Positions 13,840-36,014 of a stretch of DNA of 51,956 nucleotides are shown one piece after another. Under the pieces are notes generated by a model, which worked only from the letters and a program-made list of their open reading frames with translations, was not told where the DNA came from and made no database searches. The stretch is taken from positions 1-51,956 of the forward strand of contig JAFRIU010000041.1 of assembly GCA_017432645.1 (NCBI GenBank). The letters run 5' to 3'. Every line of letters starts with the position of its first letter. The first letter of the stretch is position 1. Source of the stretch: Bacilli bacterium. Lineage in GTDB: Bacteria; Bacillota_I; Bacilli_A; RF39; UBA660. The translations under genes and the position numbers were made by a program.

Positions 13840-14430
13840 ATGAAAAAAAGTGATAAAGTATTTCTAATCTTTTTTCTGGCTATCGTAACCTTCTCTATGC
13901 TGTATTTATTTCAAGCATCTTATGCAAAATATAGAAGGCAAGCACAAGCACAAGTAGATGCAACTGTAGCTAGTTGGGACATAAAAGTAAATACAGAAAG
14001 TATCAACAATAGAACGGTACTAACCAATAGCATTACCCCAACTCTAACAAGTGATCCATATATAAAATCAGGAGTCATCGCTCCAGGATCAGAAGGATAC
14101 TTCACAATCTCAATTGATGCAACCAATGTTGATGTTGATTTTACCTATGAAATTCAATGTACTCCGGATTTAGATACCCCACTCTATGATATCAAATTTA
14201 CTCAATATGCAACAGGTGGTTCTACTCAAACCTGGCCGCAAAGCGGAATAGTAACAGGAGATATTACCAAAAACAGTTCTTCGCAAACAATCACTATTTA
14301 CTTTGAATGGGACGACGATCCTGCAACTACTGTCATGGACAATCAAGATGATACAGAATTTGCTATTGATCCAGATAATGCAACAACAAAGATAGATGTA
14401 CAAATTAGTTTCACACAAAAAAGATCTTAA
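13840..14430 (+). CDS. Secreted TasA/camelysin-like fibre subunit
   Basis: 196 residues with ribosome site AGGTGAGAAT. An N-terminal basic stretch and hydrophobic helix at about 7-27 end at QASYAKYR, a likely SipW-type processing region. The mature part is predicted beta-rich and opens with DATVASWDIKVNTES, the hallmark start of TasA/camelysin-like proteins. It then has an APGSEGYFTISIDATN segment like the family's GxxG-type turn before the core sheet. The tail is IDVQISFTQKRS. It is the only plus-strand gene of the fibre locus, facing the related 249-residue gene across a shared terminator. Processing and polymerisation are inferred, not shown. Confidence 0.78.
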   Translation: MKKSDKVFLIFFLAIVTFSMLYLFQASYAKYRRQAQAQVDATVASWDIKVNTESINNRTVLTNSITPTLTSDPYIKSGVIAPGSEGYFTISIDATNVDVDFTYEIQCTPDLDTPLYDIKFTQYATGGSTQTWPQSGIVTGDITKNSSSQTITIYFEWDDDPATTVMDNQDDTEFAIDPDNATTKIDVQISFTQKRS

Positions 14431-14450
14431 AAAAGATCTTTTATTTTTTT
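14419..14450. terminator. Bidirectional terminator between two convergent fibre-subunit genes
   Basis: AAAAGATCTT and AAGATCTTTT pair around a four-base loop, with T runs on both strands. It separates the plus-strand gene ending 14430 from the minus-strand gene ending 14452. Confidence 0.85.
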
Positions 14451-14451
14451 A

Positions 14452-15201
14452 TTAATCATCAGAAGCTTGTGATACCAAAAGCTTCATCGTTAATACCAAA
14501 CAAGCAGATCCACTAGTTGTTTCATAATCATTACATCTCATTCCAAAATAAGAATCTGCATCATCTTTCTGTAAATACAAACTATTAATACTATTCTGAT
14601 AAGCTACACTATTAGCAATGGTTGTTGGTGTATAAGTGTTTCCAGATCTTGTATAATAAGTAAAAGTATCATCATACTGATAAACGTTATTTTGTCCATA
14701 ATAAGAAGAACTATTTTCAAATGGCCAAGTAACATGAACCGTAAAATGAAGCGTATCATTAGCAGTCATAGAATTCTTATCTGTTGAAAAAGTAATAGCA
14801 AACGGATAATACGTACTTAAATACTGAAAGACATTAGCTTGACTAGTCAAATTGACAACATTTCCCAGAATACTTAAAGAAGTTACTTCATAATCAAAGT
14901 CTGCTTCGACATCACTATCATTTTCAACAGAAACCGTACTAGAAAAATCAGTCATACCTGGTTTCATCTTCGTAACTTCAACAACAACATTACGAACAAC
15001 AACATCATTATCATCCTTGAATTTAACACTCCAAGAAGCAACCGTTGCATCTAGAGTTAATCCAACATTTGCAGAAAAAGCGAACCAAGCAAAAATATTA
15101 ACACCCAAAGTAAATAGTGCTAGCATGATACTAAAATACTTCCTCTTTCGTAATTGTTTACTAAGAGCGGCTAATTGTTTTTTCTCTTCTTGCTCTTTCA
15201 T
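14452..15201 (-). CDS. Secreted TasA/camelysin-like protein
   Basis: 249 residues with ribosome site AAGGAGAAAT. A charged cytoplasmic N-terminus of about 20 residues is followed by a hydrophobic helix at about 21-44 ending AWFAFSANVG. The mature part starts with LDATVASWSVKFKDD, sharing DATVASW exactly with the convergent gene, then has a beta-rich body with VEVTKMKPGMTDFSSTVSVEN. A Cys pair near the C-terminus (MRCNDYETTSGSACLVL) could form a disulphide. It is the last gene of the operon that includes SipW and the AAA+ module, starting eight bases after the signal peptidase stop, so it is a likely SipW substrate. Confidence 0.78.
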   Translation of the reverse strand: MKEQEEKKQLAALSKQLRKRKYFSIMLALFTLGVNIFAWFAFSANVGLTLDATVASWSVKFKDDNDVVVRNVVVEVTKMKPGMTDFSSTVSVENDSDVEADFDYEVTSLSILGNVVNLTSQANVFQYLSTYYPFAITFSTDKNSMTANDTLHFTVHVTWPFENSSSYYGQNNVYQYDDTFTYYTRSGNTYTPTTIANSVAYQNSINSLYLQKDDADSYFGMRCNDYETTSGSACLVLTMKLLVSQASDD

Positions 15202-15209
15202 ATTTCTCC

Positions 15210-15890
15210 TTATAATAGTTCTATATCATTTTTCTTTTCTTCCTGTGGAGTTTGTTGTTTTACCTCTTCCACTATAGGATTAGGAACTTCTTCCTCTTCA
15301 TCCTCTTCAAAAGAATCCCCTATTCTTTGAATTTCATTTTTTTCTAAACGAATATCCGTAATCGTCTGTAAAATCTCTAAGACGATAATTAAAGTCAAAG
15401 GACAGAATATTAAAAGGAAAAATCCCAACTGCGTTTTTACAACATGATTTATTTCAGTAATAATAGGAACCTTACCAACTACTTTACCTAAAATCTGATT
15501 TTCTCTAGTAGCAGGATCTTCTGCAGGAGCATTAATTCCTTTAGTTACAAAAATTCTTCCTTTATCATCATCTGCTTCTTCAATTCGAATAATTCTATGG
15601 GTAATTAATTTTCCCTCAAGACCTCCACGTTCTCCTTGAAAAGCAATATCATCTCCTATTTTTAAATCATCTACGTTGTAATCTTTTACAGCAATTACAT
15701 CATTAATTTCATAAACACCAGACATGGAACCAGTTGCGACAGTAAATAAACGATAACCAAAAACACTGGCATTTCCATTAATTCTTTGCAATAAAACGAA
15801 AATTAAATAAACAGCAATAAGAGCAATAAAAAGGCCTCTAAAAATACCTAAAATAATTTTGATAAATCGATTCTGAAATATTTTTGCCAT
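15210..15890 (-). CDS. sipW: SipW-type signal peptidase I
   Basis: 226 residues. This ER/archaeal-type signal peptidase uses a Ser-His pair instead of the bacterial Ser-Lys. Membrane helices lie at about 12-34 and 146-170. The nucleophile is serine 55 in TVATGSMSGVYEINDVI, and the base is histidine 98 in KLITHRII. QILGKVVGKVP follows as in the family. In Bacillus SipW matures the fibre protein TasA. Here its stop lies just before a TasA-like gene and one base separates it from the DUF2357-like gene upstream, tying signal peptidase and AAA+ module into one operon. The C-terminal 50 residues are acidic and cytoplasmic. Confidence 0.92.
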   Translation of the reverse strand: MAKIFQNRFIKIILGIFRGLFIALIAVYLIFVLLQRINGNASVFGYRLFTVATGSMSGVYEINDVIAVKDYNVDDLKIGDDIAFQGERGGLEGKLITHRIIRIEEADDDKGRIFVTKGINAPAEDPATRENQILGKVVGKVPIITEINHVVKTQLGFFLLIFCPLTLIIVLEILQTITDIRLEKNEIQRIGDSFEEDEEEEVPNPIVEEVKQQTPQEEKKNDIELL

Positions 15891-15891
15891 A

Positions 15892-17025
15892 TTATACCTC
15901 TTTCCGTAACAAATCTAAGACATCCTCTATGCCCTTTTCTTCCCGCTCCAATCGATCTTCCAATACTTTAAAGATACGTTCTGCACGAGCAAGGTTCTTC
16001 TCTTTCATCAATTTTAATTGTTTCAAAAAAGCCTCTTCAATTTTATCTTCTGTTAAATCTACATCTGTATCCAATAAGTTTTCAATCAATCTTTGAATCA
16101 TTTGATTGACAACAGCACTCTCCGTTGCCGTTTTACTATTAGTAATAAAGTTCTTATTTGCTATAAATGCCATTAAAAAGGCTTGGTCATACTCATTTTT
16201 TAAAACACCCTTATCAAAGAAATCTCTCTTTTCCTTTTCTCTCTTATCCTTACTCTCAAAAGATTGAATATAGTTCCATAATTCCTCTGCTTTTCTAAAA
16301 TTAGGGTTCTTCAAAATAACGTTAGTCTTTTTAATGGGACTTCTAACTGGCGCAACATGTAATTTAGAAAGAATCTGCATCAATTCTGTTCCAAAGAATC
16401 CATCAATTTGCGTTTTTACTTTTTTCAAACGGTCTGCTAAAGTCATGTTCCCTTTATCACCAGAATGCTCTTTAACCGTTTTTGTAATATCACTAATATC
16501 AATATTAATTTTTAAATTTTCACTATATACTTTTGTGTTTGCAGTATATTGTAGAAGGTTCTTATCCAAACAATAACTCTGTCCAGAAGTAGCCTCTACT
16601 CTATTCTCATAAAATAATCTTAAGTTATTAAGTAAAGTAAAGATAAACCTATTTTCATAAGTATCCATACTCTCCTCTTTATTAATGTTCAAAATCTTAG
16701 ATGGTTTTACATCACCATTATCTTCGATTTTTTGAATTAAGTTAGTATGTTGGGTAAGGTGGATAACAGATTCTACCGTAACTTTACGAGCTAATTCTAC
16801 TTTAACGATTTCCTCCTCATTGATAATGAAACGTTTTGGGTTTCTCAAAATATTATCAATATAAGGAATACAATCTTCTACGATATCTAACCATTCATAG
16901 TCAAAGTCTTTCATATCGTAGTCTCTTTTAACATATAAAGTAGAATTCAAATTATGAAGAAAGAGCTCATCATCATCTAATTCTTCTTCCTCTTCGTCAT
17001 CTACTACGTCGAATTCCTTAGCCAT
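15892..17025 (-). CDS. DUF2357/McrC-like protein, putative partner of the AAA+ ATPase
   Basis: The start at 17025 follows GGAGGTGAGTAAG and gives 377 residues. A strongly acidic N-terminus (DDEEEEELDDDE) precedes a domain with SMDTYENRFIFTLLNNLRLFYENR near 125-150, which matches the TxENRFxxxxL signature of DUF2357 proteins. LHVAPVRSPIKKTNVILKNPNFRKAEELW near 235-260 also fits the family. DUF2357 proteins usually pair with McrB-like GTPases/ATPases. No complete PD-(D/E)xK nuclease motif stands out, and the C-terminus is a charged coiled coil. The AAA+ gene lies 15 bases upstream. Function is inferred from pairing. Confidence 0.6.
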   Translation of the reverse strand: MAKEFDVVDDEEEEELDDDELFLHNLNSTLYVKRDYDMKDFDYEWLDIVEDCIPYIDNILRNPKRFIINEEEIVKVELARKVTVESVIHLTQHTNLIQKIEDNGDVKPSKILNINKEESMDTYENRFIFTLLNNLRLFYENRVEATSGQSYCLDKNLLQYTANTKVYSENLKINIDISDITKTVKEHSGDKGNMTLADRLKKVKTQIDGFFGTELMQILSKLHVAPVRSPIKKTNVILKNPNFRKAEELWNYIQSFESKDKREKEKRDFFDKGVLKNEYDQAFLMAFIANKNFITNSKTATESAVVNQMIQRLIENLLDTDVDLTEDKIEEAFLKQLKLMKEKNLARAERIFKVLEDRLEREEKGIEDVLDLLRKEV

Positions 17026-17040
17026 CTTACTCACCTCCTA

Positions 17041-18585
17041 CTAAACCATCTTCTTAAGTCTTAATAAATACTCCTTACACTCATTAAAATTCTCTCTTCC
17101 AAAGCTTTTATCCAAAAATTCAATAAATGGATCGATTTCATCACGAATATAAGCTAAGTTTAACTGTTCAAATTTACGTAGAATTTTACGAGCAATGTAA
17201 TAGTCAACACCATCAACTTCTGTTCCCCCACAGCCAACATACGTAGCAACAAAGTCTTTCATCTGTTTAACGATACGGTTACCGAAAGCAATACGGAAAT
17301 GTTTAATAACATAATCGTCCATTTCGTTAATTTTCTTTTCCATTTCGCTAGTAATCGGATGGTTCTTCTTTGCTTCAGCAAATAAACCTTCCAAATAAGA
17401 ACTATTGATCTTCATAGCATCTGTATCAATTGGTTCAAAAACTTGTCCTTTATCATTAATATCTATTGGCATCGCACGGTCGTACACTTTATCGGTAACT
17501 GCAAAGGTTGAGTCATCGTTATTGATGGTACCGATATACCACATATTACCAGGAATTTGTAATTTACCACCTTTTAGTTTTACCGGGTCATTATCCCAAA
17601 CACTTGGTACTAACTCAATAATCCATTCATCACGAGAAGGCATTTCTAGAATGGATAACATTTCTGCGAAATAATACTCGACACGGGCGATGTTCATTTC
17701 ATCCAGTACAGTAACATATACATCATCTGTATAGCCAGCTAAATATAAACCTTTTAAAACTTCTGTTTCATTGAATTTCTTTGTGAATTCGTTGAAGTAT
17801 CCAAACAACTCGGTACGATCTCTCCAAGAAGGCTGAACAGAAGCAATAATGGCATCATTCTTAATAAATTTACCCCAAGCATAAGCAAGGGAAGTTTTAC
17901 CAGTACCAGAGATACCTTGTAAGATAACAAGTTTCGTAGCAGATAAACCTGAAATGAATAATCGAATCATATTCGTCGTATAATAAAGTCTTAACTTAGA
18001 GGCGGCGAAATTTCGGAATATCTCAACTAACTCTTCCAAAGTAAATGTATTTCCATATTGTTGAACTTTATAATCACGGAACTCTACATCGATAGCATGA
18101 AGTTTACTGAATCGGTAACTATCAAGATCCCCATCTAAGTTCTCAGTCTTCTCTTCTCCAGTCTCAGTACCTTCCGTAGAAACCGTAGGCTCTTCACCTG
18201 GCTTCAATCCAAGTTGAGAAACCTTCATTGCTAAAATCTTTTCTTTTTCTTCCACTAAAGTAGCAACTTCTTTATTCAATTCTCCAATCTCTGCTAACAA
18301 GGATTCTTGTTCTACTAACGTCTTACGGAATTTAATGAATTTCTTAATGAAGAATACGATAAGTAATACAATAAGGGATAATAAAATTAGCATAACAACA
18401 ATCGCAACAACAACTAATACCCATTCAGCAACTTTTAAATCTTTTCGATAAAAGTCAATTACATTTAAGTATTCTGGAATATTAAACATTTGAACAATTC
18501 CATTGAAAAATCCCATCACAATCGTAATCAGACCACTAAAGAAAACAGACATAAATTCAAATAAAAATCGAATATACGTATCCAT
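17041..18585 (-). CDS. Membrane-anchored McrB/MoxR-like AAA+ ATPase
   Basis: The start at 18585 follows GAGGAGGAGTAGT and gives 514 residues. Two hydrophobic segments lie near 8-32 and 53-82, followed by a coiled coil at about 83-125 and a linker rich in Glu and Thr. The ATPase follows: Walker A GISGTGKTSLA near 222-232, PSWRDRTELFGYFN, Walker B VTVLDEMNIARVEYYF near 290-305, and sensor-like GTINNDDSTF near 350, with DRAMPI after it. DEMNIARVEYYFAEM and SWRDRTELFGYFN closely match McrB-type restriction ATPases, but those are soluble; membrane anchoring is unusual. It sits between the 351-residue protein and the DUF2357 protein in a tight operon ending with SipW and a fibre subunit. Confidence 0.88.
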   Translation of the reverse strand: MDTYIRFLFEFMSVFFSGLITIVMGFFNGIVQMFNIPEYLNVIDFYRKDLKVAEWVLVVVAIVVMLILLSLIVLLIVFFIKKFIKFRKTLVEQESLLAEIGELNKEVATLVEEKEKILAMKVSQLGLKPGEEPTVSTEGTETGEEKTENLDGDLDSYRFSKLHAIDVEFRDYKVQQYGNTFTLEELVEIFRNFAASKLRLYYTTNMIRLFISGLSATKLVILQGISGTGKTSLAYAWGKFIKNDAIIASVQPSWRDRTELFGYFNEFTKKFNETEVLKGLYLAGYTDDVYVTVLDEMNIARVEYYFAEMLSILEMPSRDEWIIELVPSVWDNDPVKLKGGKLQIPGNMWYIGTINNDDSTFAVTDKVYDRAMPIDINDKGQVFEPIDTDAMKINSSYLEGLFAEAKKNHPITSEMEKKINEMDDYVIKHFRIAFGNRIVKQMKDFVATYVGCGGTEVDGVDYYIARKILRKFEQLNLAYIRDEIDPFIEFLDKSFGRENFNECKEYLLRLKKMV

Positions 18586-18586
18586 A

Positions 18587-19642
18587 CTACTCCTCCTCAA
18601 ATAATAACATTTGCATCATATCATTTTCATATTTAACAAAGAAATCACGATCTTTAAAGCGATAATCACTAACAATCAAATAAGAGAAAACGCCTTCTTT
18701 CGCAATATTGTCTGTTTTTTGATAAATATCATTAATATGAACAAAATCTTGTATACAAGCTAAACGATATCCAATAGAAAAAGCACTTCTTTGATTCAAA
18801 AACGTATTATAATTCACAGCTAATATAACATGATTTCGAAACAAAGGATTAGAAAGCAAATTCATGACATCATTCTTAATTTTTCCTCTACTAACAAAGC
18901 TACTACTTACTTCGATAAAATAAATAGGTATCTCTTTCTTTTCTAATGTTCTCTTTAAAATATCTAAAGATACTTTCTGAATTAAACACTCTACCTTAGG
19001 CTGACCTAATTTATCATCTTGATAAACCTTTTGAACCATACTTTTGCGATAAGTACTTAATGATTTAATTCTAGGAACAAGTTCCAAATAAGCCATATCT
19101 TTATGCTGTTCAAACAAACGAGATTGGACTGCATAATAATTATCTTCATAATTCAATAATCTAAAACAAGTTTGATAAGTAATTCGGATAAGACGCATAA
19201 AATCATTTTCTCTTCCAATGACATATTTTCTTAAAGCATCATTATCCGAAATAAAATTAAGAACTTTTGGGAAAATATCATTTTTACCATCAAACAAAAT
19301 CCAATCGAGTTGAAGTAAACTATCACTTAAATCTTTTAAATCATGAATTACCTTACGATTATGAGTATATTCTTCATTACTGACATTCAACTCATCATCA
19401 CGATAATCAACAAGCATCTCTTCCATGATTCCTTTTAATTCTGCCTTCTGATTTTTGGCATTATAAGTAGCTTCCCCTTCAATCGTATGAAAAATTCCAT
19501 AATAATAATTATCCACATAAACATTAAAGTATTTTGAAAATACATCTCGTACAAAATCACTATTTTCCTGATAAGCAAAAACACCGTATTCTATAAGACG
19601 ATTTATCTTGTAATTCATAAACACACTAATTAAATTGTCCAT
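18587..19642 (-). CDS. Protein of unknown function in the AAA+/SipW operon, 351 residues
   Basis: The start follows ATAGGTGATTTT. The protein has no clear signal peptide or membrane segment. It is mostly helical over the first 200 residues, with many Tyr and Asp. A beta-alpha part follows near 240-330, including PIYFIEVSSSFVSRGKIKND, HVILAVNYNTF and GYRLACIQDF. The last segments are faintly reminiscent of a degenerate EAL-like barrel, but the catalytic EAL residues are absent, so this is only an impression. Its stop lies one base before the AAA+ gene and it heads the McrB-like/DUF2357/SipW/subunit operon, so it may be a third component of that machine. Confidence 0.75.
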   Translation of the reverse strand: MDNLISVFMNYKINRLIEYGVFAYQENSDFVRDVFSKYFNVYVDNYYYGIFHTIEGEATYNAKNQKAELKGIMEEMLVDYRDDELNVSNEEYTHNRKVIHDLKDLSDSLLQLDWILFDGKNDIFPKVLNFISDNDALRKYVIGRENDFMRLIRITYQTCFRLLNYEDNYYAVQSRLFEQHKDMAYLELVPRIKSLSTYRKSMVQKVYQDDKLGQPKVECLIQKVSLDILKRTLEKKEIPIYFIEVSSSFVSRGKIKNDVMNLLSNPLFRNHVILAVNYNTFLNQRSAFSIGYRLACIQDFVHINDIYQKTDNIAKEGVFSYLIVSDYRFKDRDFFVKYENDMMQMLLFEEE

Positions 19643-19699: not shown

Positions 19700-20629
19700 C
19701 TAATTTGCAGTATTTACAGAAACTGTAATGATTGGAGTATTCGAACTAGGATAAGTATAATCCTCCGTAGGATCATCCTTATAGAAAATAATAGAGTTAC
19801 TAGAAGCTGCATTCAATCGAAAAGAAAATCTAGATACATACTGGAAATTATTAATAGTTGTCTCCTGATAATTCGTACTTAGCCGGTTCAAATATAAAGG
19901 ATTAGTCATATCAAGCAAAACATAATGTGGATCATATTGTAGGGTAACTTCTGCAGATAAAACCTTGGCTCTTTCCGAACTATTCAAAAGAGCATATTCA
20001 TCCAAACTAATATGGTCCCCTGCTGTATAGCTACCGAAGTCTTGCAATACTTCATAGAATGTAATGGAATTAATAAGATTTAACGTCAAGTATTTAGAGT
20101 TTACACTATCTTCAATATTGTAAGAAAAGTTAGCTTTTTGAACTCCTATAGTATACGTTGCACTCATCTCTTTCTCATAAGGAGAAGAAGACCTTACCGT
20201 GGTAGTAACTGTAACCGTATCTCCCTCATAAAAGTTTTGAAGAGGAGTAACAGTAAGAACATAACTATCTGTCTCATCATTAGCTCGAAGAGTTGCACCT
20301 GTTTTGCTTAAGGTACAAGCAACTGTAGCAGGACAGCTTTTCGTAATAGTATAGACAATATCCGCATCGGTATGTCGTAAAGCATTTTTTCTATTATTTA
20401 CATCGATAGTTAAAGGATAAGAGTTAACACCATCCCAGTTTACAATGGAATAATTCTTTCCATTAATTCCTAAAACCGTACTGTTGAAGTAAAAAGCTTT
20501 AGCTTCCAACAAATAATTATTAATAATATTCTTGATATATCGTCCAAAAGCTACCGTCACAAATAAAAACAAAGAAGAAACGCATAAAACAATGATACTA
20601 ACTAACTTATGGTCACGAACAAATTTCAT
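19700..20629 (-). CDS. Membrane-anchored or secreted beta-rich protein of the fibre locus
   Basis: 309 residues, with ribosome site AAAGGAGGAATATC. A hydrophobic helix at about 9-29 (LVSIIVLCVSSLFLFVTVAFG) is followed by RYIKN, so it is a signal or anchor segment. The rest is Ser/Thr/Asn-rich and predicted beta-rich, with possible Ig-like modules (TVTPLQNFYEGDTVTVTTTVRS). A cysteine pair SCPATVAC near 93-100 may form a disulphide. It begins 13 bases after the stop of the 203-residue neighbour and ends 57 bases before the AAA+ operon. It is not clearly TasA-like by sequence, but shares architecture and context with the other subunits. Confidence 0.72.
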   Translation of the reverse strand: MKFVRDHKLVSIIVLCVSSLFLFVTVAFGRYIKNIINNYLLEAKAFYFNSTVLGINGKNYSIVNWDGVNSYPLTIDVNNRKNALRHTDADIVYTITKSCPATVACTLSKTGATLRANDETDSYVLTVTPLQNFYEGDTVTVTTTVRSSSPYEKEMSATYTIGVQKANFSYNIEDSVNSKYLTLNLINSITFYEVLQDFGSYTAGDHISLDEYALLNSSERAKVLSAEVTLQYDPHYVLLDMTNPLYLNRLSTNYQETTINNFQYVSRFSFRLNAASSNSIIFYKDDPTEDYTYPSSNTPIITVSVNTAN

Positions 20630-20642: not shown

Positions 20643-21254
20643 TTATATTACTTGTTGAGATTCTAGTATAACTTGAATATGTTCAATCTTATTCGCATAA
20701 GAAGGACTGTTTTTATAACTAGAAGGGAACTCAATCACAAGAGAATAAGCATCCGTTGTGTGAGTATTATAATTCATATTATAAGAACCCACAGTCTGAT
20801 AAACACGATACCAAGCACCATCTTCATCTTGTGCAGTAGTAGCTCCACCCAGAATATTAGTAGCACCGGGTGAATTATATAACTCATTTCGATAAAGACG
20901 AACAATAATTGGCAAATTCGTGGTCGTTTTAACTTTAATCAAATAGGAAAGATCAACATCTCCATCCTTATTCTCCATAAAATTAGAAACAGTAAAACGA
21001 TATACATAATAATCATCAGAAGGAACAATTCCATCAGGTTCTAGATTAAAAGACAATTTTTCATCTGTAAAAATATAAACTGCTCGATCAATATTAGCCA
21101 TAATTTTAGAACGAACTTCATATCTAGCATAAGCCATTCCAAGTAAATATCTAGCTAAGAAAAGAACTAAAAATAAGGAAAACGAAAAAAGAAGAAACCT
21201 TAATTTCTCATTCGAATAAGAATTAATTTTTAACATTTTCCTTAATCGATTCAT
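20643..21254 (-). CDS. Membrane-anchored or secreted beta-rich protein, TasA-like architecture
   Basis: 203 residues with ribosome site AGAGGAGAGTT. A cytoplasmic basic start is followed by a hydrophobic helix at about 18-43 ending LLGMAYARYEVRSKIMANID, resembling the YAxY/F processing region of the other subunits. The body (RAVYIFTDEKLSFNLEPDG, YYVYRFTVSNF, LSYLIKVKTTTNLPIIVRLY) is beta-rich and ends IEHIQVILESQQVI. It lies ten bases after the EP-tail gene and before the 309-residue gene, so three subunit-like proteins are co-transcribed. It probably belongs to the TasA/camelysin-like group; confidence is moderate as the core motif is weak. Confidence 0.72.
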   Translation of the reverse strand: MNRLRKMLKINSYSNEKLRFLLFSFSLFLVLFLARYLLGMAYARYEVRSKIMANIDRAVYIFTDEKLSFNLEPDGIVPSDDYYVYRFTVSNFMENKDGDVDLSYLIKVKTTTNLPIIVRLYRNELYNSPGATNILGGATTAQDEDGAWYRVYQTVGSYNMNYNTHTTDAYSLVIEFPSSYKNSPSYANKIEHIQVILESQQVI

Positions 21255-28600: not shown

Positions 28601-30830
28601 CATTATTAATTCCTGTTACAGTAATCGGAACCGTATTAGAAAAACCACTAATATTACTATTTAAAAAGACTATATTTGTATCTCTTGTAACCAGATAATA
28701 ATAATCATAATTCGTATCCGGATCAAAAGTATTAGTTGCATCATACTGCATAAGTTCATAATAGTTATTACAGTTTGTTCCAGAACAACTTCCAGAAGTC
28801 TGAATCACACCTGTACCATTATAATAGCCAACCAAAGACCCTGCTGGAACACCTTTTCTAAAATAACCAGCAAGAACATCACCAGTTGCTAAAAACGTAT
28901 TCATAGTATAAGAAGAAGCCGCAACAACAAAGGACCGCATAGTTCCATTTAATAATTGATAATACGTTCCTCCATCTACAATATCAGCAGTTGCAACTGG
29001 TAAATAATAGTAACAAGTTCTAGGAGTCCAACGGTCAATACGTGTACAACGTTGATTACTTAAACTATTACCATTACCACCAACAGCACCACTCGGATAA
29101 GAAACACCCTGACTACTCGTACCACTACTCATACTATTGTAAGAATATACAGTACTTGGTAAATTATTAAACACTGGAGTTCTTGTCCCAATAGGAACCA
29201 TCTGCACACTCTTCAAATTAGAAGCTGTTGCACTATTCGCAACAGTAGCCTCTGTCCAAGAAGCATACATTGTAATAGAAACAGGAGTCGTATCGGACAC
29301 TGGGAATTTTACATATCTCGTATAAGTATCCATATCCAAACTAACAACGGCTCCATCATAATCAGTAACCCATCCATTAAATGCCCTACCATCAGGACGA
29401 TCTCCATATGGATTATCAATTAATGGAATCGTAACATAACCATTATCAATCGGATAATATTTATAATAAACAAAATCAGAATACTGTTCACTCAAGGAAA
29501 CATAACCAGTAATAGTAGATCCTGAATTAATCTCAGTACCTCTATAAGCAATGTAAACTGCTAATAAATTCTCATTATTATAAAGATTTTGACTTGTAGT
29601 CGTTGGAATGGTTCCATTACTTCTTTGAGTATAGTTAAGTCCCATATAATAATTATAATCAGCTGTTAAATCATTAATATAAACAGTAGAACCATCTAAA
29701 CCAGTATCATGTAATGAAATTCCAGCACTTCTCAAAGAGAAAGTGAAACCTTTTGAATTAATCGGAGCAACAGAAGAAGCCATCACAACCTTCTGATAAG
29801 CATGAATAACTAATTCTTGATCTTCCAAAGTCCAATAACAATCTTCCCCAATATCATCATTCAAGAAAGATAAAACCGTTTCACTCGCAACAGCCTCATC
29901 TAATTGATTATAAAAAACTCCATCTTCATAAAAATAAGCATCTTGAATACCAGAATAAGAAAGAACATTTTCTACACCATTGATTACTCTCATGTTTGTA
30001 ATAATCGTAGAAACATTTCCAATGTTTTCTAAAGAGTCTTGAACAAAAGGAATAGAAGAAAAATCATGATTAGCATTTACTTCTCCTTGCAAAAAAACAT
30101 TTTTCACAAGTGCTTGATAAACAATATTAGAAATCAATACTCCAACAGTAGAATGTTCAGAAGAAGTCTTAGAAAGATCTAAATAAAACTGTTTCAAATA
30201 AATATTTTTATAAACAGGAATCTCTACTTCTAATTCTTCATCAGATTCTTCTTCAGAATTGATTTCTACTCCGATACAATCTCCAATAAAAGCAGAAACT
30301 ACTTTATCACTTTCATCATTAGGAACTTCAATTCTAAAATTAACTAGTCCCAAAGAAGAAATAAAAGCATTTTTAGTCTTAGTAAATAAAGAATAATACT
30401 CTTTATCACCAATAACCGTTCCTTCTGTAATTTTAAAATTCTGAAGAGCATAACCATTTCCATCAAGATGTCCAGCAAAAAATCTTTCCTCTTCACCTTC
30501 TAAAATACCGATAGGTGTAATCGCATTTCCATTAAAATTAATATCTTCTTCTAATTTATAGTACTTATCCTGATAAAAAGAAGATTCATCTCCCTCTATT
30601 AATTTTTTGAAATAAATAAATTCAGATGCATCTTGAATAACATAAGGATTTTCAACAGTACCATTTCCCTTAGAAAAACTAGTTGCGACGCTAACTCCAT
30701 CCCAACCTTCCATTTGTGCTAAAGAAGCAACTCCTGATACTAAACTATAAATAGCAAAAGAAAAAATGGCAAGAAAAAAAGCAGCGATAAAATAAATGAA
30801 TAATCTTTTGCTTAAAACTTTATTTTTCAC
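22662..30830 (-). CDS. Giant secreted repeat protein (YGGGN beta-helix-like), about 2,722 residues
   Basis: A GTG at 30830 follows AGGAAGTGAGAGCA; an in-frame GTG three codons earlier is possible. A signal or anchor helix lies at about 12-36. Residues about 45-350 hold GLUG-like and beta-rich segments. About 440-530 holds an InlB-repeat-like part (GRAFNGWVTDYDG). About 950-1850 holds roughly 28 repeats of 20-27 residues around VYGGGNxxG and TTSNVTIxxGT, as in right-handed beta-helices. A long Ig-like region follows, and the end is KYVIVHKNLQ. No LPxTG motif or C-terminal anchor is seen. Downstream of a SipW gene by 19 bases, it is probably a SipW client and adhesin-like surface protein. Confidence 0.88.
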   Translation of the reverse strand: MKNKVLSKRLFIYFIAAFFLAIFSFAIYSLVSGVASLAQMEGWDGVSVATSFSKGNGTVENPYVIQDASEFIYFKKLIEGDESSFYQDKYYKLEEDINFNGNAITPIGILEGEEERFFAGHLDGNGYALQNFKITEGTVIGDKEYYSLFTKTKNAFISSLGLVNFRIEVPNDESDKVVSAFIGDCIGVEINSEEESDEELEVEIPVYKNIYLKQFYLDLSKTSSEHSTVGVLISNIVYQALVKNVFLQGEVNANHDFSSIPFVQDSLENIGNVSTIITNMRVINGVENVLSYSGIQDAYFYEDGVFYNQLDEAVASETVLSFLNDDIGEDCYWTLEDQELVIHAYQKVVMASSVAPINSKGFTFSLRSAGISLHDTGLDGSTVYINDLTADYNYYMGLNYTQRSNGTIPTTTSQNLYNNENLLAVYIAYRGTEINSGSTITGYVSLSEQYSDFVYYKYYPIDNGYVTIPLIDNPYGDRPDGRAFNGWVTDYDGAVVSLDMDTYTRYVKFPVSDTTPVSITMYASWTEATVANSATASNLKSVQMVPIGTRTPVFNNLPSTVYSYNSMSSGTSSQGVSYPSGAVGGNGNSLSNQRCTRIDRWTPRTCYYYLPVATADIVDGGTYYQLLNGTMRSFVVAASSYTMNTFLATGDVLAGYFRKGVPAGSLVGYYNGTGVIQTSGSCSGTNCNNYYELMQYDATNTFDPDTNYDYYYLVTRDTNIVFLNSNISGFSNTVPITVTGINNGSNHTNYRVDLSSTAISAGADLRIEYCALYTGEIEPSSNGPSNTTSDYVYGNFYNLKIGRGMPISTGTYQTGSWWSGYETHEGTYFNAFGVVGGRSSGTGTSGSPTKYSLIVESGFYNAISTVSTVSSSATYYVDAQAIYGNDFDRIQNHHNLMGASYNVASSFGGTVSSGSYTKTFVTSTFKSGTYGVDKEDTAAGVYVGGLSGGTINSPAETIIEGGNIAYLNGGPLISTNLTNYNAIYVNIKGGTVDAVFGGAARSETYGNRIINITGGAVNYGVCGGSNGIEGSNSNNNRGTLNGSTFIRIGGTGVVGTKSDSVFGIESGSVFGAGNGNTTYSEIGSVNNSTIMIADSAIITKNVYGGGNYGSVKAQSGNASTSTIIMDGGTVRGSIYGGGNNNGSGSTSVTSTIGITLNGGTVQNSIYGGSRTKGIVYGSTSVTVNGGTVTHDVYGGGEGGYLPSNDNSTPGTYVRDNVAVTVNNGTISGSVYGGSAFGTVNAINETTTTSSATTTVTINGGTIQTSVFGGGKGDTTYTPKVIGDITVTVEGGSIGNVFGGFDASGSPNAGDVVYLNGGTIGNAYGGGNKTGQTTTDIRLQGARVNNALFGGSNESGTVTTSNVTITSGIAKDVFGGNNLGGTTVTTNVTVTGGRFLGDIYGGGNEAPSTTSNILIRIAPVNDVYGGGKEAGLTTSNVTIRNASFNNMYGGSNVSGDVETSNVSVTTTSGSCVFGGNNQGGTTTTTNVDVSLSTLDIVFGGGDNATSGESHVTITGGNVSEVYGGGNEAGLTTSNVTIVDGTIGAVFGGSNQSGNITTSNITIGDPLQDPLNIDIQIDSVYGGNNYGGVTSSANITSHMGTIGQLFGGGNEASVGETNVSLTNTDFYEVYGGGNAAGVSGDTYLSLGGCTVTDSVYGGGNEGVVGGDTEVIIEDTSIGANAYAGGNGSTAIVSGDSTITIRGTSEIGTSTSVAPYEGCVFGSGNAANTGTLANNNSKATVNITGATIHGNVYGGPKMAVVYGLTEVNIGSSALGSGAMPNNSVVIDGTVFGGGESNASGSTNYDWTFISVTQGITVNIDGTNYASRNYDFEIHGSIFGSGNASSSSGTSEIYITHLGSIDAPNSAISIQRANYLEIASSAIELAGATDRTNDYSDSLYSFNIIDKMVIRDGTALLLQHNANLLKELYSGVYDEDEEEIVPATVDIDDELKTVTRNVDNRIYMIPGENLNITINQNATAYGKVTGMTFFGMYQPYEGGYRLGLYDPVYDYDDLGDAGLEIIGGSYVVGLHSVDHDITKDGFYSNYLDDVNYDKIVTAYIDPTPIGETGYRWTIGFEAINYEFTLTASKYSSLGTTELQLTDFATGDAVFSILGVDTSGLDTGISMVDSTLVPRVGRTLEQANQTLGLAMKAETQEWMGYGTTKFYSQDGGTLTGTREYRTDSRQLPPSFMFYLYHAKNISVDGPLGSVVITVQVATPKNGYEQNIDFITITANIIARQFDDGDSYDASITYDKRYEMPSSTLVNITNTSQFTAYFSLIAWNNQFSGVYGNNNENFHVLITDHVLPVNTMITMLDFGANPDRPEYYYFRVTQSVYDNSVYQLQHDNEVTYPLSQFIKMDSTSTTNTYSDSDSNLLYYDSNIGLVDEEFIFIFDFKECTQVTGDHLNNSVLFELRNNENRTVFTVLGIREAVMYYSTYESTNIVLDQTITNAEAYLYYDIPDEINYTTQVQYDETENRQSVIDTNYESSSMGLNIAFLDRDNEPVSSSLLIGTYFRINNQQYFADADGVFRIKLSDKVSNLIRVAQLNVYKTLPAGQYTIRYTLFASDDGLHNSDPANSVYEEITVTVVSSDNSLIVDCEPYTEIVDGATGLNMNNTRLNTYVVQYQSVLTNPNFRVEVYKRNTTSVDVDQYTSIGFHYLFTNDLFASSGNEVSISMDGRNRKNFDFQLQTTDNLTSGTYRVVFKLYDNNQLIDSDEKYVIVHKNLQ
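25280..27980 (-). repeat. Degenerate tandem repeat array encoding YGGGN units
   Basis: About 28 imperfect in-frame repeats of about 60-80 bases inside the giant gene. Plus-strand landmarks are the recurring CCACCACCATA and CCACCAAA blocks (Tyr/Phe-Gly-Gly-Gly codons). Units in the middle carry TTSNVTI almost unchanged. Confidence 0.85.
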
Positions 30831-30849
30831 TGCTCTCACTTCCTATATA

Positions 30850-32190
30850 TTAATACTTTCCAATCTTAGCCAATCTTTCGATTTTCTCTAATTCAAATAC
30901 GTTCTTATTATCAAATCGGTTAGATACCTTATTCATAAATGAAATTAAAGATTTTACTTGTTTTACAGTCTTCTTATCAGACTCATCAAATTGTAAGAAT
31001 TGATTGTATTTATCAATAATTACTTTATATTTTAAAATTTTATAAATACCATCAAACATTTCCGCATCATTATAAAGAATAGAATAAGTAAGAATTCTTA
31101 AGAATATATAGATTGGCATATCATAAATTCTATTTCGGATTGCCTCCGTAAGTCCTACACGCTCCAAATCATAATCATAAATTTCTTTAAATGGTGGATT
31201 AATAATATCTTTTTTTAATTGCTCCATATTATTTCGAAGTAACAAATGACATAACCGGTAAACATATTGGTATTTTTCTAACCATTTAAGTGTCATTCGA
31301 ACTTTTGAAATATTATTCTTTTTGCACTTTAGAATTGATAGAATGACATCTACTAATTCTTTTTGATTTTGATCTTCATATTCCTCTTGAAGAGATTGAT
31401 CTGCATAATTCAAAGCAGTAGATGAAGTATTAACTACCTCAGCTTCTTCTTTGACATGCATTTTTTCCAAAGCTTCCATTTCATCAATTGCAATGGTAAC
31501 CGTAAGTCCACTAGATTGTTCCTTTGCCTGAACAGTTGGATTTTTAAAAATCGTATCTGGTACTGCTTGCACAAGAGCAGGAACATTTGGATTCATAGCC
31601 GGAGTACTAACTCCTGCTACTGGTGTCCCAGGCACAACAGTAGGAGAAGCAGTAAGTGGAACCGCATTAGGAGGGGCAATTCCTGGCTTTGCCGTAGCAC
31701 TTTGTTCGCCCTTTAAAATATATTTTTTAATAATATTATCAAAATTAACTAAAGCCAATAATATAAAGACAATTAAGAAAATAGCAATAGATTTCAAAAT
31801 AAAACTAGGAGATACTATCAAATTAACTTTTCCAATAATTTGATTCTTAGTAATCAACTCATCCGTAACATTATTTACATCACCTTTAGTGATATACTTA
31901 TCATCTTTTTGACCAATCAAACGGTGTGTAATAATATCTCCATCATTACTCTTAAAAGTAATAACATCATTATTCTTTACATCCTTGGTAAGTTTTACAA
32001 AGATAATATCATCTACTTCAATCGTTCCAGACATCGAACCAGTTGCGACTACAAAGTAAGTATATCCAAAGACATTAACATAATCTTTTTTTAGAATATC
32101 CGTAATAACAAAGGTATAAATACATAAAGAAACTAACAACACTAAAAAGAAAGATGCAAAATACTTTAAAGCACTCTTTAGTCTTTTCAC
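30850..32190 (-). CDS. sipW: SipW-type signal peptidase I with a long C-terminal cytoplasmic extension
   Basis: The start taken is GTG at 32190 after GGTGGTGACTAAG, giving 446 residues. The peptidase part is residues 1-160: a helix at about 10-30, serine 52 in VVATGSMSGTIEVDDII, histidine 89 in DIITHRLIG, and a second helix at about 134-158. Then comes an Ala/Pro/Val-rich linker of about 60 residues (IAPPNAVPLTASPTVVPGTP) and a helical domain of about 200 residues with no recognised family. Normal SipW is about 190 residues, so the extension is a fusion. It sits directly upstream of the giant secreted protein gene, its probable substrate. Confidence 0.9.
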   Translation of the reverse strand: MKRLKSALKYFASFFLVLLVSLCIYTFVITDILKKDYVNVFGYTYFVVATGSMSGTIEVDDIIFVKLTKDVKNNDVITFKSNDGDIITHRLIGQKDDKYITKGDVNNVTDELITKNQIIGKVNLIVSPSFILKSIAIFLIVFILLALVNFDNIIKKYILKGEQSATAKPGIAPPNAVPLTASPTVVPGTPVAGVSTPAMNPNVPALVQAVPDTIFKNPTVQAKEQSSGLTVTIAIDEMEALEKMHVKEEAEVVNTSSTALNYADQSLQEEYEDQNQKELVDVILSILKCKKNNISKVRMTLKWLEKYQYVYRLCHLLLRNNMEQLKKDIINPPFKEIYDYDLERVGLTEAIRNRIYDMPIYIFLRILTYSILYNDAEMFDGIYKILKYKVIIDKYNQFLQFDESDKKTVKQVKSLISFMNKVSNRFDNKNVFELEKIERLAKIGKY

Positions 32191-32239
32191 CTTAGTCACC
32201 ACCAATCTATTCTATCCTCATACTACATTATAGCACATA

Positions 32240-32334: not shown

Positions 32335-33966
32335 CTACTCTTCACTGGCTTTTTCCTTAGCTAAAATATCACTCATTTTACAAATATTTTCAATTGTATG
32401 GAATTGAATTTTACTACGATCTACATTTTGAATTAAATTAATAAAACGTACACTTTCCAACGTTGAATCAATATTATCGATATTAATCATCTCACTCGTA
32501 ATATTTAAATTAAGTAATTTATACTTTTCAGCCACTACATCTGTTACATTATAATTAACAAGAGCATTTATTTTCCTTAAAAAACTATTGTTTGGATTAT
32601 ACAAGAAACGGAATAACGCTTGTATATTTTCTTCTAAGGTGTGTTCCGAAAATGGCTCTGCAGTAGAGAAAGACTTTTCTAAAAAAGGAAAAGATTTAAG
32701 TGCTGTCATGAATAAATCATAAATCGTAGCAGATTCATTCAAAGTCATCAAGTGATAAGTAATATCCATATCCTTGTACTCTGCATACAAATCATGTAAT
32801 TTACGAACTTGCTCATTCATTTTCAACATAGCATCCTGCATGTTAACTTCGTTCTTCTTTGCAAAAAGACCAACACCAGATGCTTTCAAATATTTTTTAT
32901 AAATACCTTCACGAACAGATTCTTCCTTATCAATCTCCTTCTTCTTCGTAAGATAAAGGTTCTTGATGGTATCTTTTTGCTTATAACGTTCCAATAAATC
33001 CTGAATCATAAATTCATAAGAATAGTATTTCTTTAACTCATTTAATGTTAAATAAAATCCCATCATAGCAGAATTATAATGATCTTTCTCAACATCTTCT
33101 AAAGAAGCAAAATTTCCATTAGTAGCAAACATATCATAGTTCTTAGCTCTAGCAGCAGAATCTGGTAAATAATCCGCTAATTTCTTTTTACCATCCAAAA
33201 ATAACTTGGTATTATAGTACTCATCCATAGCAATTTTATTACCAACCATTTGTCGAACTTGAATATATCTAGACACAACATCATTAGCTGTAACCTGATA
33301 TCTAGTAAGCTCAGAATTCTTAAGAGAAACAACATATTTCTCTAGTTCTTTTGTATATTTACCAAGGATATATTCTAAATTCATCTTTAATTGCAATTTA
33401 ATATCAGGACAAGCAAAATATATTTTTTCAAAAGAATCTTTCAAAACTGAAAAATCTACCTTTTGAAAAAAAGTATTCATATAACGTTCCGTAAACATTG
33501 TATATTGAAAATCCTTTATAGTTAGAGAAATACCTATTTGTTGCATCTGTAAAATAAAGGAATTCAAAATAGAATTTAAATCTTGCAATGACGTATTATC
33601 TGTAATAGAAGAAATAATAAAATCAAATTTTAACTTAAAACTATTAGAAATATCCGAATTTAGTTTTACTAAATTTAATAAATTATCTACCTGTAATAAT
33701 TCGGCAGTATATTCGTTACTATGATCGATTGGCATAAGAGAAACTACTCTCTTAGACATCAAATCAAGGACAACACTCAAAGCCTTCTCATATAAGGGAA
33801 GTTGATTTTGAATATAAGTATTTCTCTTTTCACAAGCTTGTCTGTGAAATTTCTCTTTGGTGCGTTTCGTACCTTCATCTGTATCTAGGATAAACTCGTC
33901 AATATGAGTACGATCAATTTCCATCTTCTTAATAAGAGAAAGATTTTCAAGACTGTTGTTGTTCAT
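32335..33966 (-). CDS. Cytoplasmic helical protein of unknown function, 543 residues
   Basis: The start at 33966 follows GAGGAGACGTCAG. There is no signal peptide or membrane segment. Composition is rich in Leu, Lys, Asn and Asp with long predicted helices, including basic stretches (KRTKEKFHRQACEKRNTYIQ near 38-57; KKKLADYL near 270). I do not recognise a domain. Its start overlaps the 53-residue gene by 20 bases, and it lies inside the fibre locus between the abundant subunit gene and the SipW/giant gene, flanked by terminators. A cytoplasmic scaffold or regulator of the surface system is possible but unproven. Confidence 0.75.
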   Translation of the reverse strand: MNNNSLENLSLIKKMEIDRTHIDEFILDTDEGTKRTKEKFHRQACEKRNTYIQNQLPLYEKALSVVLDLMSKRVVSLMPIDHSNEYTAELLQVDNLLNLVKLNSDISNSFKLKFDFIISSITDNTSLQDLNSILNSFILQMQQIGISLTIKDFQYTMFTERYMNTFFQKVDFSVLKDSFEKIYFACPDIKLQLKMNLEYILGKYTKELEKYVVSLKNSELTRYQVTANDVVSRYIQVRQMVGNKIAMDEYYNTKLFLDGKKKLADYLPDSAARAKNYDMFATNGNFASLEDVEKDHYNSAMMGFYLTLNELKKYYSYEFMIQDLLERYKQKDTIKNLYLTKKKEIDKEESVREGIYKKYLKASGVGLFAKKNEVNMQDAMLKMNEQVRKLHDLYAEYKDMDITYHLMTLNESATIYDLFMTALKSFPFLEKSFSTAEPFSEHTLEENIQALFRFLYNPNNSFLRKINALVNYNVTDVVAEKYKLLNLNITSEMINIDNIDSTLESVRFINLIQNVDRSKIQFHTIENICKMSDILAKEKASEE

Positions 33967-34108
33967 CTGACGTCTCCTCACTTTCCGGTACCGTTGTGTC
34001 CAAGATACTATCTTTTAAATAGGAGATGTGAGCTACTAAACGATCATGTAACGTTAGTAAATCATCATCACTTATAGTTTGAATTTCTAAGATTTCTTGT
34101 TCTTCCAT
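33947..34108 (-). CDS. Small acidic protein, 53 residues, unknown
   Basis: Starts after GAGGTGAGGTT and reads MEEQEILEIQTISDDDLLTL and on to an acidic end (ESEETSDEQQQS). It is soluble, with one probable helix (LLTLHDRLVAHISYLKDSIL). Its last 20 bases overlap the start of the 543-residue gene, whose ribosome site lies inside it, so their translation is coupled. No family is recognised. It resembles the small acidic gene plus large helical gene pair at 4389-6261 in layout, not in sequence. Confidence 0.6.
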   Translation of the reverse strand: MEEQEILEIQTISDDDLLTLHDRLVAHISYLKDSILDTTVPESEETSDEQQQS

Positions 34109-34126: not shown

Positions 34127-34152
34127 AAAAAGCCTTCGCAGGAAGGCTTTTA
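34127..34152 (-). terminator. Terminator after the major subunit-like gene
   Basis: AAAAGCCTTC and GAAGGCTTTT pair around a four-base loop, followed by T on the minus strand, 20 bases after the stop at 34172. It closes the promoter-driven unit that starts at about 35980. Confidence 0.88.
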
Positions 34153-34171: not shown

Positions 34172-35194
34172 TTATGTTGCACTAGAATCAATACTAAATT
34201 GTAAGTTATAAGTTAATGAACTTCCTGAAGCATGGTCTTCACAGTCAACATCTTGTCCTTCAATCCACATATAAATTCTTATTTTAGTAATACCAGCAGC
34301 AACTTGGAAAGCTGATATATAAGAATTAGTAGGAATACCAGCAGCTAAAGATCCTGTAGTAGTAACTGATTGGAAATAAGTACTATTAGTACTATCAAGT
34401 GCAATAGCATTGGCAGCAGCAATTGGAGCTTTTACACCAACATATGCTAACTTAGAACCACCAGTTAATGAAGTAGTAATACCATAAACACTAGATGCAT
34501 TAGCAACACCTGAAGCAGTATGAACATCATAGTTTGGTTCCCAAATCATTCTTAAAGTTCCACCATGTAAAGCTTGTGCACTAGCAGGTGTAGAAGCATA
34601 AGCAACATTTCCTTCATCAATAAATGCAACACGAGCAGCATTTTGAATACCCTTATCATCTGTTCCAGCATATACAACGCTAGAGTTTGAAGTTAAGTAT
34701 ACAGTTTGTGCTTCTGTTGATTGGAAGAATAAGTCAAATACTACGAAATCTCCTTGATTCTTAGCCGTTCCACTTCCATCTTCTACTGTTGCTACAGCAG
34801 ATAAAATATTATCACCAGTAGACGCATTGGTTTCAACAGTACCTCTAAACATATTCATATAACCAGTAGCACTATCAGTTAATCCAGCAGTTGATACTGG
34901 TACCATTGTATTACCACTACCATTTGGAATTTGGTTATTAATTCCATCCCAGCTAGCAGCTAAAATATCACTATTGGTAACAATAGACTTCCAGTTAGCA
35001 GCATCAACTGAAATTTGTAAACCTTGAGAGGTTGAAACATTAACGTTAATAGCCTCTACGGTTACCGTTCTGTTAGCAGTAAACCATGCATAGGTTGCTG
35101 TTCCAAGTGTTGCTACCAACAACAATATCATGATTAAAGCTAAAAATAATTTTCTTCTTCTTTTTCTACTTCTTCTTGCTTGTTTCTTTGTCAT
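34172..35194 (-). CDS. Secreted TasA/camelysin-like protein, probable major subunit
   Basis: 340 residues with ribosome site AGAAGGAGTAGATTTTT. A very basic N-terminus (KKQARRSRKRRRKL) and a hydrophobic helix at about 17-37 end TATYAWFTANRTVTVEAINV, the YAWFT processing region seen in camelysin-like surface proteins. The mature part is rich in Ala, Ser, Thr, Asn and Gly, with a beta-rich pattern, and ends with IRIYMWIEGQDVDCEDHASG. WIEGxDxxC also occurs in the neighbouring 237-residue protein, showing common ancestry of the C-terminal module. Low-complexity, Ala/Thr-rich composition and its own terminator suggest high expression. A fibre role is inferred. Confidence 0.78.
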   Translation of the reverse strand: MTKKQARRSRKRRRKLFLALIMILLLVATLGTATYAWFTANRTVTVEAINVNVSTSQGLQISVDAANWKSIVTNSDILAASWDGINNQIPNGSGNTMVPVSTAGLTDSATGYMNMFRGTVETNASTGDNILSAVATVEDGSGTAKNQGDFVVFDLFFQSTEAQTVYLTSNSSVVYAGTDDKGIQNAARVAFIDEGNVAYASTPASAQALHGGTLRMIWEPNYDVHTASGVANASSVYGITTSLTGGSKLAYVGVKAPIAAANAIALDSTNSTYFQSVTTTGSLAAGIPTNSYISAFQVAAGITKIRIYMWIEGQDVDCEDHASGSSLTYNLQFSIDSSAT

Positions 35195-35209
35195 AAAAAT
35201 CTACTCCTT

Positions 35210-35923
35210 CTATTTTTTCTTTTTATTATTATCGACATGTTCCTCGGTAATATCCATATGCATTTTTATTTCTCCGCCTAACAATTCGTTCTTGCACTCA
35301 GGATCATCTCCCTCTATCCAAACAACGATTGTAAATCGGTCCTTTTTCTTTGGCTTAAAATCTTTCCGTTGTTCCAAAACTGCTATGGAATTTGAGACAA
35401 ACTTTGTAGTATTCGGTTCGGCTTCCTTCGTCACTTTACTCTCTTTCGCATAAACTGTTTTCTCACCATTTCGAATAACCATGACTCGAATTGCCTCATC
35501 CACATTCAAGATAATATCATCAATATCTATTTCATACCAGTAATGCACAGTTTCTGTACCAGCATTAATAATATAAAATGTATAAGCAATGTAATTATCT
35601 CCATTATGAGCCCCTACTGCTTCTTCTCCAATATTATCTGGGATCCACGATTCTGATATATTATCCATATAATGAATCGTTCCAGCGCTAAGCAGTCGAG
35701 TCTTATCTGATTCTTTACCAGACTCAGATAGGAAAACATTTTTACGATTGGATAAGTTCTTATCCAAAGTAATTGTGAAGCGACCTCCACCATATACAAT
35801 ATATAAAATCAAATAAATAATCGATATTAAAATCAATAGGAGTAAAAAAGCAATCTTAACAATTTTCCTAAATAACTTACCTCTATAAATTTTCTCGGCT
35901 TTTACTTCTACCTCATTATTCAT
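35210..35923 (-). CDS. Membrane-anchored or secreted protein related to the major subunit
   Basis: 237 residues. A cytoplasmic start with KIYRGKLFRKIVK is followed by a hydrophobic helix at about 24-45. The extracellular part has YIAYTFYIINAGTETVHYWYEIDIDDII in the middle and FTIVVWIEGDDPECKNELLGG near the end, matching the WIEGxDxxC motif of the 340-residue protein encoded 15 bases downstream. The tail is basic (NNKKKK). It lies first in the two-gene unit with promoter at 35986-36014. It may be a minor subunit or membrane base for the fibre. Confidence 0.74.
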   Translation of the reverse strand: MNNEVEVKAEKIYRGKLFRKIVKIAFLLLLILISIIYLILYIVYGGGRFTITLDKNLSNRKNVFLSESGKESDKTRLLSAGTIHYMDNISESWIPDNIGEEAVGAHNGDNYIAYTFYIINAGTETVHYWYEIDIDDIILNVDEAIRVMVIRNGEKTVYAKESKVTKEAEPNTTKFVSNSIAVLEQRKDFKPKKKDRFTIVVWIEGDDPECKNELLGGEIKMHMDITEEHVDNNKKKK

Positions 35924-35985
35924 ACCATCACCACTTGCTTTATATTATCGTATCACTTGCCACCTTTCCTACTATGCCTAACATA

Positions 35986-36014
35986 ATTATAGCGACATTT
36001 TTTTACGAAATCAA
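35986..36014 (-). promoter_or_regulatory. Promoter for the two-gene subunit operon
   Basis: Minus strand TTGATT (36009-36014) and TATAAT (35986-35991) are 17 bases apart, giving a leader of about 55 bases before the 237-residue gene. The stretch from 36015 to 36198 is AT-rich and holds no gene that I can see. Confidence 0.75.

Follow-up and report, generated by a model that had tools for sequence, protein, structure and literature searches.

A candidate surface-fibre cassette of the CoCoPALM class, with a predicted membrane-anchored McrB-type GTPase, in a Bacilli bacterium

GTPases of the McrB type are known from restriction systems, where they act as motors. Among them, a shortened NxD motif marks the branch that holds the CoCoNuTs and the CoCoPALMs (Bell et al. 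2024, PMC11090510), and the latter are presented in that paper, under the term "pilus assembly", as combining an NxD GTPase and an FtsB-like membrane and coiled-coil part with signal peptidases, the McrC-type DUF2357 partner often being devoid of a nuclease. In its main text, the class is named in one paragraph, left uncharacterised and deferred to a later publication, and our literature search, whose scope left out most subscription journals and bioRxiv, found CoCoPALM only in this eLife paper and its preprint. Here, we describe a locus of about 23 kb in contig JAFRIU010000041.1 of a Bacilli bacterium (assembly GCA_017432645.1), the window analysed being the whole stretch of 51,956 nucleotides. 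Judged by its sequence, this locus fits the CoCoPALM class, and it is probably an accessory cassette of that class for a surface fibre and a giant adhesin, whose assembly a McrB-type GTPase would gate or drive. It has in common with CoCoPALMs a McrB-type GTPase that carries the NxD motif and membrane segments at its N-terminus, a nuclease-less DUF2357 partner and signal-peptidase genes alongside. New here are TasA-like subunits as the likely cargo, a giant repeat protein, a conserved dead SipW paralogue and a variant in which a peptidase is fused to a domain termed U351; neither these nor the cassette boundaries appear in the main text of PMC11090510. An earlier note on this DNA, made from the letters alone, held such a combination to be undescribed, which is right for the gene set as far as that main text goes, but not for the class: as CoCoPALM had already been named there, the locus sits within a named but undescribed class and is not a new category.

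Parts of the cassette also recall other described systems. Like the tapA-sipW-tasA operon of Bacillus subtilis (PMC9674648), it encodes SipW-type peptidases and beta-sandwich subunits predicted to be processed at their N-terminus, and the TasA fibre subunit is the nearest fold to its protein S1 by Foldseek; unlike that operon, it comprises a GTPase, a DUF2357 protein, a dead SipW paralogue and a giant protein, has two predicted active peptidases, and encodes subunits unmatched by the TasA family models. In sipW-bsaABCRSD of Clostridium perfringens (PMC7395162), an extracellular polymer is formed in a SipW-dependent and sortase-independent manner, as would be the case here, and the main subunit is followed by a terminator with read-through, a plan similar to that of the S7-S6 unit presented below, whereas that operon has a single SipW and two-component regulators, and no McrB-type GTPase is reported for it. 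The CoCoNuTs and classical McrBC systems share the McrB-type GTPase and the DUF2357 partner, and the CoCoNuT branch also the NxD motif, but they carry nucleases or RNA/DNA-binding parts, whereas the cassette has predicted membrane anchoring and surface cargo and no nuclease was found in it. Finally, the archaeal bundling pili and threads (7ueg, 7pnb; PMC9715654) are donor-strand filaments of secreted beta proteins, with predicted signal peptidase I cleavage in the case of the threads; both were among the top Foldseek matches of the small proteins, although they are archaeal, lack a GTPase module and showed no sequence relation to the cassette.

The cassette extends from position 13,616 to 37,042, between a relA/spoT-type gene (12146-13615) at its left edge and valS (37043-39574) at its right edge. 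In G013, a congeneric genome that is 94% complete, about 150 bp separate these two genes (C3:214637-216109 and C3:216258-218783), no open reading frame of the cassette occurs in the interval, and neither the GTPase nor the S6 gene was found in the genome; therefore, as judged by this empty site, positions 13,616-37,042 form a single accessory block. In other relatives, the block sits beside different neighbour genes. The extent first proposed, 13840-36014, holds all the named genes and is slightly smaller than the inserted block. As for the tightly packed operons of the earlier note, the cassette genes are indeed closely packed on the minus strand, with the exception of the S1 gene, which lies on the plus strand and is convergent with that of S2.

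Conservation of the gene set, which the earlier note had proposed to check, is extensive. A scan of public genomes returned at least 519 loci related to the cassette, and the locus-order counts are those of the best 80 of them, many of which are broken by contig or flank ends. These 80 come from metagenome-assembled genomes named Bacilli, Erysipelotrichaceae, Clostridia or Ruminococcus, many of them from gut or rumen, and most, across many genera, share both the gene set and its order. The DUF2357 gene follows the GTPase gene in 76/80, SipA comes after it in 63/80 and S2 after that in 54/80; in 58, the U351 gene lies immediately upstream of that of the GTPase, S3 was found in 56, and the giant protein in 45, many copies being cut short. 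In the family, the GTPase gene is present in 40 of 145 genomes, with 52-81% identity across its full length. In the class, its profile matches 135 of 395 sampled genomes, a count that takes in more distant, shorter McrB-type relatives, and none of the matches listed from a phylum-level genome sample lay outside the class. The S6 family was detected in 35 of the 40 GTPase-positive genomes against 2 of the 105 GTPase-negative ones (Fisher p 8e-26, shared ancestry not corrected), one of the latter two matches being marginal and the other belonging to a genome that is 81% complete. Relatives of S1/S5 are spread more widely (31/40 and 21/105, respectively). Most surface proteins are less conserved than the GTPase, whose module is the best conserved part. 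Since many genera have these genes in this arrangement and S6 tracks the AAA+ gene, the locus is not a chance assembly.

The AAA+ gene (17041-18600, minus strand) encodes a protein of 519 aa with two N-terminal hydrophobic segments (residues 12-30 and 63-81), followed by a charged stretch. Its motifs GISGTGKT, LDEMN and GTINNDDST are invariant or nearly so in 17 relatives, and among solved structures, those of E. coli McrB are the closest (E 1e-6). The third motif could be read as NxxD or NxD until it was aligned with other members: NNDDST falls on NHDETT, NVDETT and NTDEST of three McrB-type proteins, encoded on plasmids beside DUF2357 or nuclease-domain genes, that is, N-x-D, then D/E, then S/T-T. 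These features place the protein in the NxD clade of McrB-type GTPases, with a predicted membrane anchor. Matches to the FtsL/FtsB families were weak, the FtsL family being hit by a single member out of 17 (0.013). The gene directly downstream (15892-17034, minus strand) encodes an McrC-type DUF2357 protein of 380 aa (PF09823, 2.6e-11), and PF09823 is present in all 14 relatives, Pfam revealing neither a nuclease nor any other domain in this protein and these relatives. The AAA+ module of the earlier note thus exists, though it is not a generic accessory: a McrB-type GTPase with an McrC-type partner had been missed. In some clostridial loci, the DUF2357 protein reaches 600-820 aa; of three such proteins that were scanned, one gave matches to coiled-coil models and none to a nuclease.

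The GTPase-DUF2357 pair was also observed in other settings. In two loci (L068, 4145-5650, and L069, 12158-13666), it adjoins neither signal peptidases nor known subunits, and in a third (L054, 4735-6231) only a distant SipA-like gene accompanies it; in all three, it is followed by a protein of about 425 aa without assigned role. This arrangement represents a second kind of use of the module, still unexplained, and one genome (G037) holds both forms. Besides, other families of the class (G184:C25, G193:C1, G216:C1, G308:C18, G388:C2, G444:C5) contain tandem, shorter GTPase relatives of about 450 aa, in pairs about 3 kb apart, most of whose matches begin at profile position 100-145, so that they seemingly lack the N-terminal membrane part. 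A human fecal phage record (MT835511.1, 40037-41155) encodes, without annotation, a McrB-type domain that shares 35% identity with the GTPase of the window; as this domain is all that it shares, and as no cassette relative was found in the viral contigs searched, a viral origin was rejected.

Two SipW/ER-type signal peptidases are encoded, as the earlier note had recognised. SipA (15210-15890, minus strand) matches the SipW model NF046067 (E 1e-20) and TIGR02228 (71.6 bits, over the cut-off), its catalytic residues S55, H98 and D125 being conserved at 97%, 99% and 100%. In SipA-type peptidases, the KGD motif seen in other SipW enzymes is mostly missing, GSM, HR and KGD occurring together in 5 of 100; Ser, His and the catalytic Asp are retained, and the absence of KGD is a trait of the subfamily. 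SipB (30850-32205, minus strand; TIGR02228, 57.8 bits, over the cut-off) has about 290 extra C-terminal residues, and its S57, H94, D109 and D115 are 100% conserved, S57/H94/D115 corresponding to the Ser-His-Asp of the type. The third relative, SipInc (22015-22614, minus strand; SipW model E 3e-6), which had rightly been described as catalytically incomplete, has D/D/H at the catalytic Ser/His/Asp columns. Ser and His are retained together in none of the 67 SipInc homologues at the corresponding place, where S5, S3 or SipB comes next, while both are present in all 12 paralogues encoded immediately ahead of the GTPase, 11 of which also have the Asp. Because the dead paralogue is conserved beside active ones, it suggests a non-catalytic partner, and with two predicted active peptidases and a dead paralogue, the two dedicated processing routes proposed earlier are plausible.

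A link between these peptidases and the GTPase is provided by U351, a predicted cytosolic protein (18587-19642, minus strand), whose gene lies directly upstream of the GTPase gene and overlaps it by 14 bp. In 16 proteins, the U351 domain is joined to the C-terminus of a SipB-type active peptidase (E 1e-40 to 1e-50); the fusion genes, which represent one subtype, lie directly before the GTPase gene, while the window type keeps U351 separate. Of all the observations, this fusion speaks most strongly for a joint action of the peptidase with the GTPase module. The C-terminal half of U351 shows a faint EAL likeness (PF00563, 0.011 in 2 of 15 members); an EAL-domain origin was discarded, as its profile, compared with those of true EAL domains, yielded a probability of 0.5% and no EAL match was found in the own genome.

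The candidate cargo consists of seven small proteins of 196-340 aa, each with one hydrophobic segment, located at the N-terminus, and no other. All seven had been listed in the earlier note, which called them short and membrane-ending; two of them, S3 and S6, are 309 and 340 aa long. The motifs that it reported are all present at the places given: DATVASW in S1 (13840-14430, plus strand, 196 aa) and S2 (14452-15201, minus strand, 249 aa), WIEGxDxxC in S6 (34172-35194, minus strand, 340 aa; WIEGQDVDC) and S7 (35210-35923, minus strand, 237 aa; WIEGDDPEC), and YA-x-F/Y/W after the hydrophobic segment of several of them (TYAWF, in S6, SYAKY, TYAAF and AYARY). Profile comparison unites S1-S5 in one superfamily: S5 (21264-21932, minus strand, 222 aa) is nearest to S1 (probability 100), S2 matches S1 (96.7) and S5 (97.1), S4 (20643-21254, minus strand, 203 aa) is linked to S1 (97.2) and S5 (97.6), and S3 (19700-20629, minus strand), predicted to be a secreted or anchored beta-rich protein, to S4 (97.1). 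S6 is tied to S2 and S5 through its N-terminal region, and S7 to S6 through the WIEG region, their C-terminal 40 columns being shared (97.7). In relatives, S1 stands beside S2. The Glu-Pro tail of S5 corresponds to a short and imperfect repeat in the DNA (21264-21332, GAACCTGAACCAGAACCT...) that was not seen in the relatives looked at and possibly arose by slippage.

Comparison with TasA and camelysin, another check proposed at the outset, gave a mixed outcome. AlphaFold2 produced models of S1 and S6 with a predicted local distance difference test (pLDDT) of 92.4 and 87.4, respectively. In Foldseek, the S1 model has the TasA fibre (8aur) as its top match (E 2.3e-4, prob 1.0), the Pyrobaculum bundling pilus 7ueg comes second and chaperone-usher pilins are near behind; by VIA, S1 matches TasA with Z 6.2 and a root-mean-square deviation (rmsd) of 3.7 over 125 aligned residues. 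The sequence families offered less: S5 against Peptidase_M73 gave E 0.0039 (17.5 bits for a cut-off of 22.5, 1 of 81 members matched), no Peptidase_M73 was found in the own genome, and a PDB sequence search with the profiles of S1/S5, S6, S3, U351 and DUF2357 returned no significant fibre or pilin match, S3 giving a weak CD22 Ig match (E 0.005). The small proteins thus likely work like TasA, while their membership in the TasA family is without support from the sequence models.

The giant protein (22662-30839, minus strand) counts 2,725 aa, close to the length first estimated, is a conserved member of the system and has a single N-terminal hydrophobic segment and no C-terminal hydrophobic anchor. 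Its residues 909-1790 hold 24 [V/I..][Y/F]GG motifs, mostly 24-26 residues apart, which agrees with the repeats previously noticed; no Pfam domain rose above chance. From this pattern, it is likely a beta-solenoid; a role as adhesin is likely as well. U548 (32335-33981, minus strand) has no hydrophobic segment and is predicted to be cytosolic; it is conserved in related loci, and its family search gave no significant family. Regarding transcription, a terminator-like hairpin with a 10-bp stem lies 3' of S6 (34128-34151, minus strand) and a promoter-like site, TTGATT-17-TATAAT, precedes S7 (35986-36014, minus strand), the latter being a pattern match of a kind frequent in this AT-rich region. 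In relatives, such hairpins occur after S7-S6 in 13/39 cases, after S2 in 18/59 and after S1 in 24/53, as compared to 1/337 in total after S5, S4, S3, U351, DUF2357, S7 and U548. As they cluster at unit ends, they suggest that S7-S6 form their own unit with read-through, that the main operon ends at S2 and that S1 is separate. Within the block, two small genes (160 and 117 aa, 36199-37036, minus strand), none seen in relatives, doubtfully belong to the system. Near the right end of the window, a large serine-recombinase-like gene (48248-49930) and a small gene (50683-51153) are probably a separate mobile element.

In the mechanism that we favour, S1-S7, anchored at their N-terminus, would cross the membrane via the Sec route and be cleaved free by SipA and SipB, SipInc likely serving as partner, and the freed subunits would polymerise through donor-strand exchange, in analogy with TasA. 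S6 and S7, in view of their promoter-like site and hairpin, are likely the abundant subunits, and S1-S5 might be minor, basal or chaperone-like ones, while the giant protein would be exported alongside as adhesin, tip or surface sheet. On the cytosolic side, a membrane GTPase ring, activated by the DUF2357 protein as McrC activates McrB, would work together with U351 and U548. Its targets would be the signal peptidases or the precursors still anchored in the membrane, and GTP would thereby gate or drive both cleavage and assembly. The overlap of the U351 and GTPase genes, together with the peptidase-U351 fusions, is the reason for proposing such a coupling.

Several points weigh against this reading. 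By VIA, PapG/FimH pilin and lectin domains (6-7.5) come above TasA for S1, which may thus be a generic beta-sandwich. For S6, TasA fibre 8aur comes first but weakly (Z 5.4, rmsd 4.1, 136 aligned), close to many generic beta-sandwiches such as sialidases and carbohydrate-binding modules, in whose range the score of the model lies; for the same reason, an enzyme role of S6 was not retained. No camelysin or TasA family model reaches its cut-off for the small proteins, and the fibre itself is a prediction from genes and models. GTP use, ring formation and the membrane topology of the GTPase are predictions. TasA and BsaA assemble without any reported nucleoside triphosphatase (PMC9674648, PMC7395162), so that a motor is not required in principle, and the GTPase-DUF2357 pair can act without fibre cargo, as its occurrence in L068 and L069 indicates. 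The weak S6 match, the pilin and lectin likeness of S1 and the missing TasA family membership would also suit the export of a surface coat or adhesin without polymer, the SipW-type peptidases releasing beta-sandwich proteins that stay monomers or form a coat, with the giant protein perhaps as main product. This is unlikely, as fibre subunits are the top Foldseek matches of S1, the occurrence of several related subunits in a locus and of multiple S6 copies in relatives suits a heteropolymer, and the dedicated SipW enzymes of other systems act on proteins that form fibres (PMC9674648, PMC7395162). The secreted fibre with a giant adhesin, as proposed in the earlier note, has met neither unrelated folds nor a lack of conservation, its weaker points being the S6 fold match and the lack of a family assignment by the sequence models.

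A surface-linked anti-phage defence, in which the McrB/McrC-type pair would detect infection at the membrane, with the surface proteins as sensors, effectors or a receptor mask, is quite unlikely. McrB/McrC relatives and CoCoNuTs count as defence systems, in part by prediction (PMC11090510), the cassette is an accessory one with a patchy distribution, and the nearest outside relatives of the GTPase are the plasmid genes mentioned above. However, the Pfam matches of the locus proteins include no nuclease, RNase or other effector domain, in the DUF2357 protein or elsewhere, most of the cassette codes for secretion and surface proteins, the peptidase-U351 fusion ties the module to processing, and the viral contigs held no relative. 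That GTPase module and fibre genes are neighbours without working link, carried jointly as a genomic island, is very unlikely: the pair does occur without signal peptidases and the S1/S5 family is found in 21 genomes without GTPase, but the AAA-DUF2357-SipA-S2 adjacency holds in 54-76 of 80 loci, S6 is nearly confined to GTPase genomes and the fusion lies beside the GTPase.

The surface-fibre cassette with a GTPase gating or driving its assembly therefore stays the reading that we prefer. It is possible, though short of probable, that a McrBC restriction motor has been recruited to pilus building in monoderms, a membrane McrB-type ring being physically coupled to SipW-type peptidases, the dead one included, for GTP-driven processing, donor-strand polymerisation and adhesin export. 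The cassette supplies the named but undescribed CoCoPALM class with a defined gene set and testable predictions. If the link between GTPase and fibre is real, the cassette would show a new means by which monoderm bacteria power or control the assembly of extracellular fibres, and it would probably be a major adhesion system in uncultured Bacilli and Clostridia of the gut.

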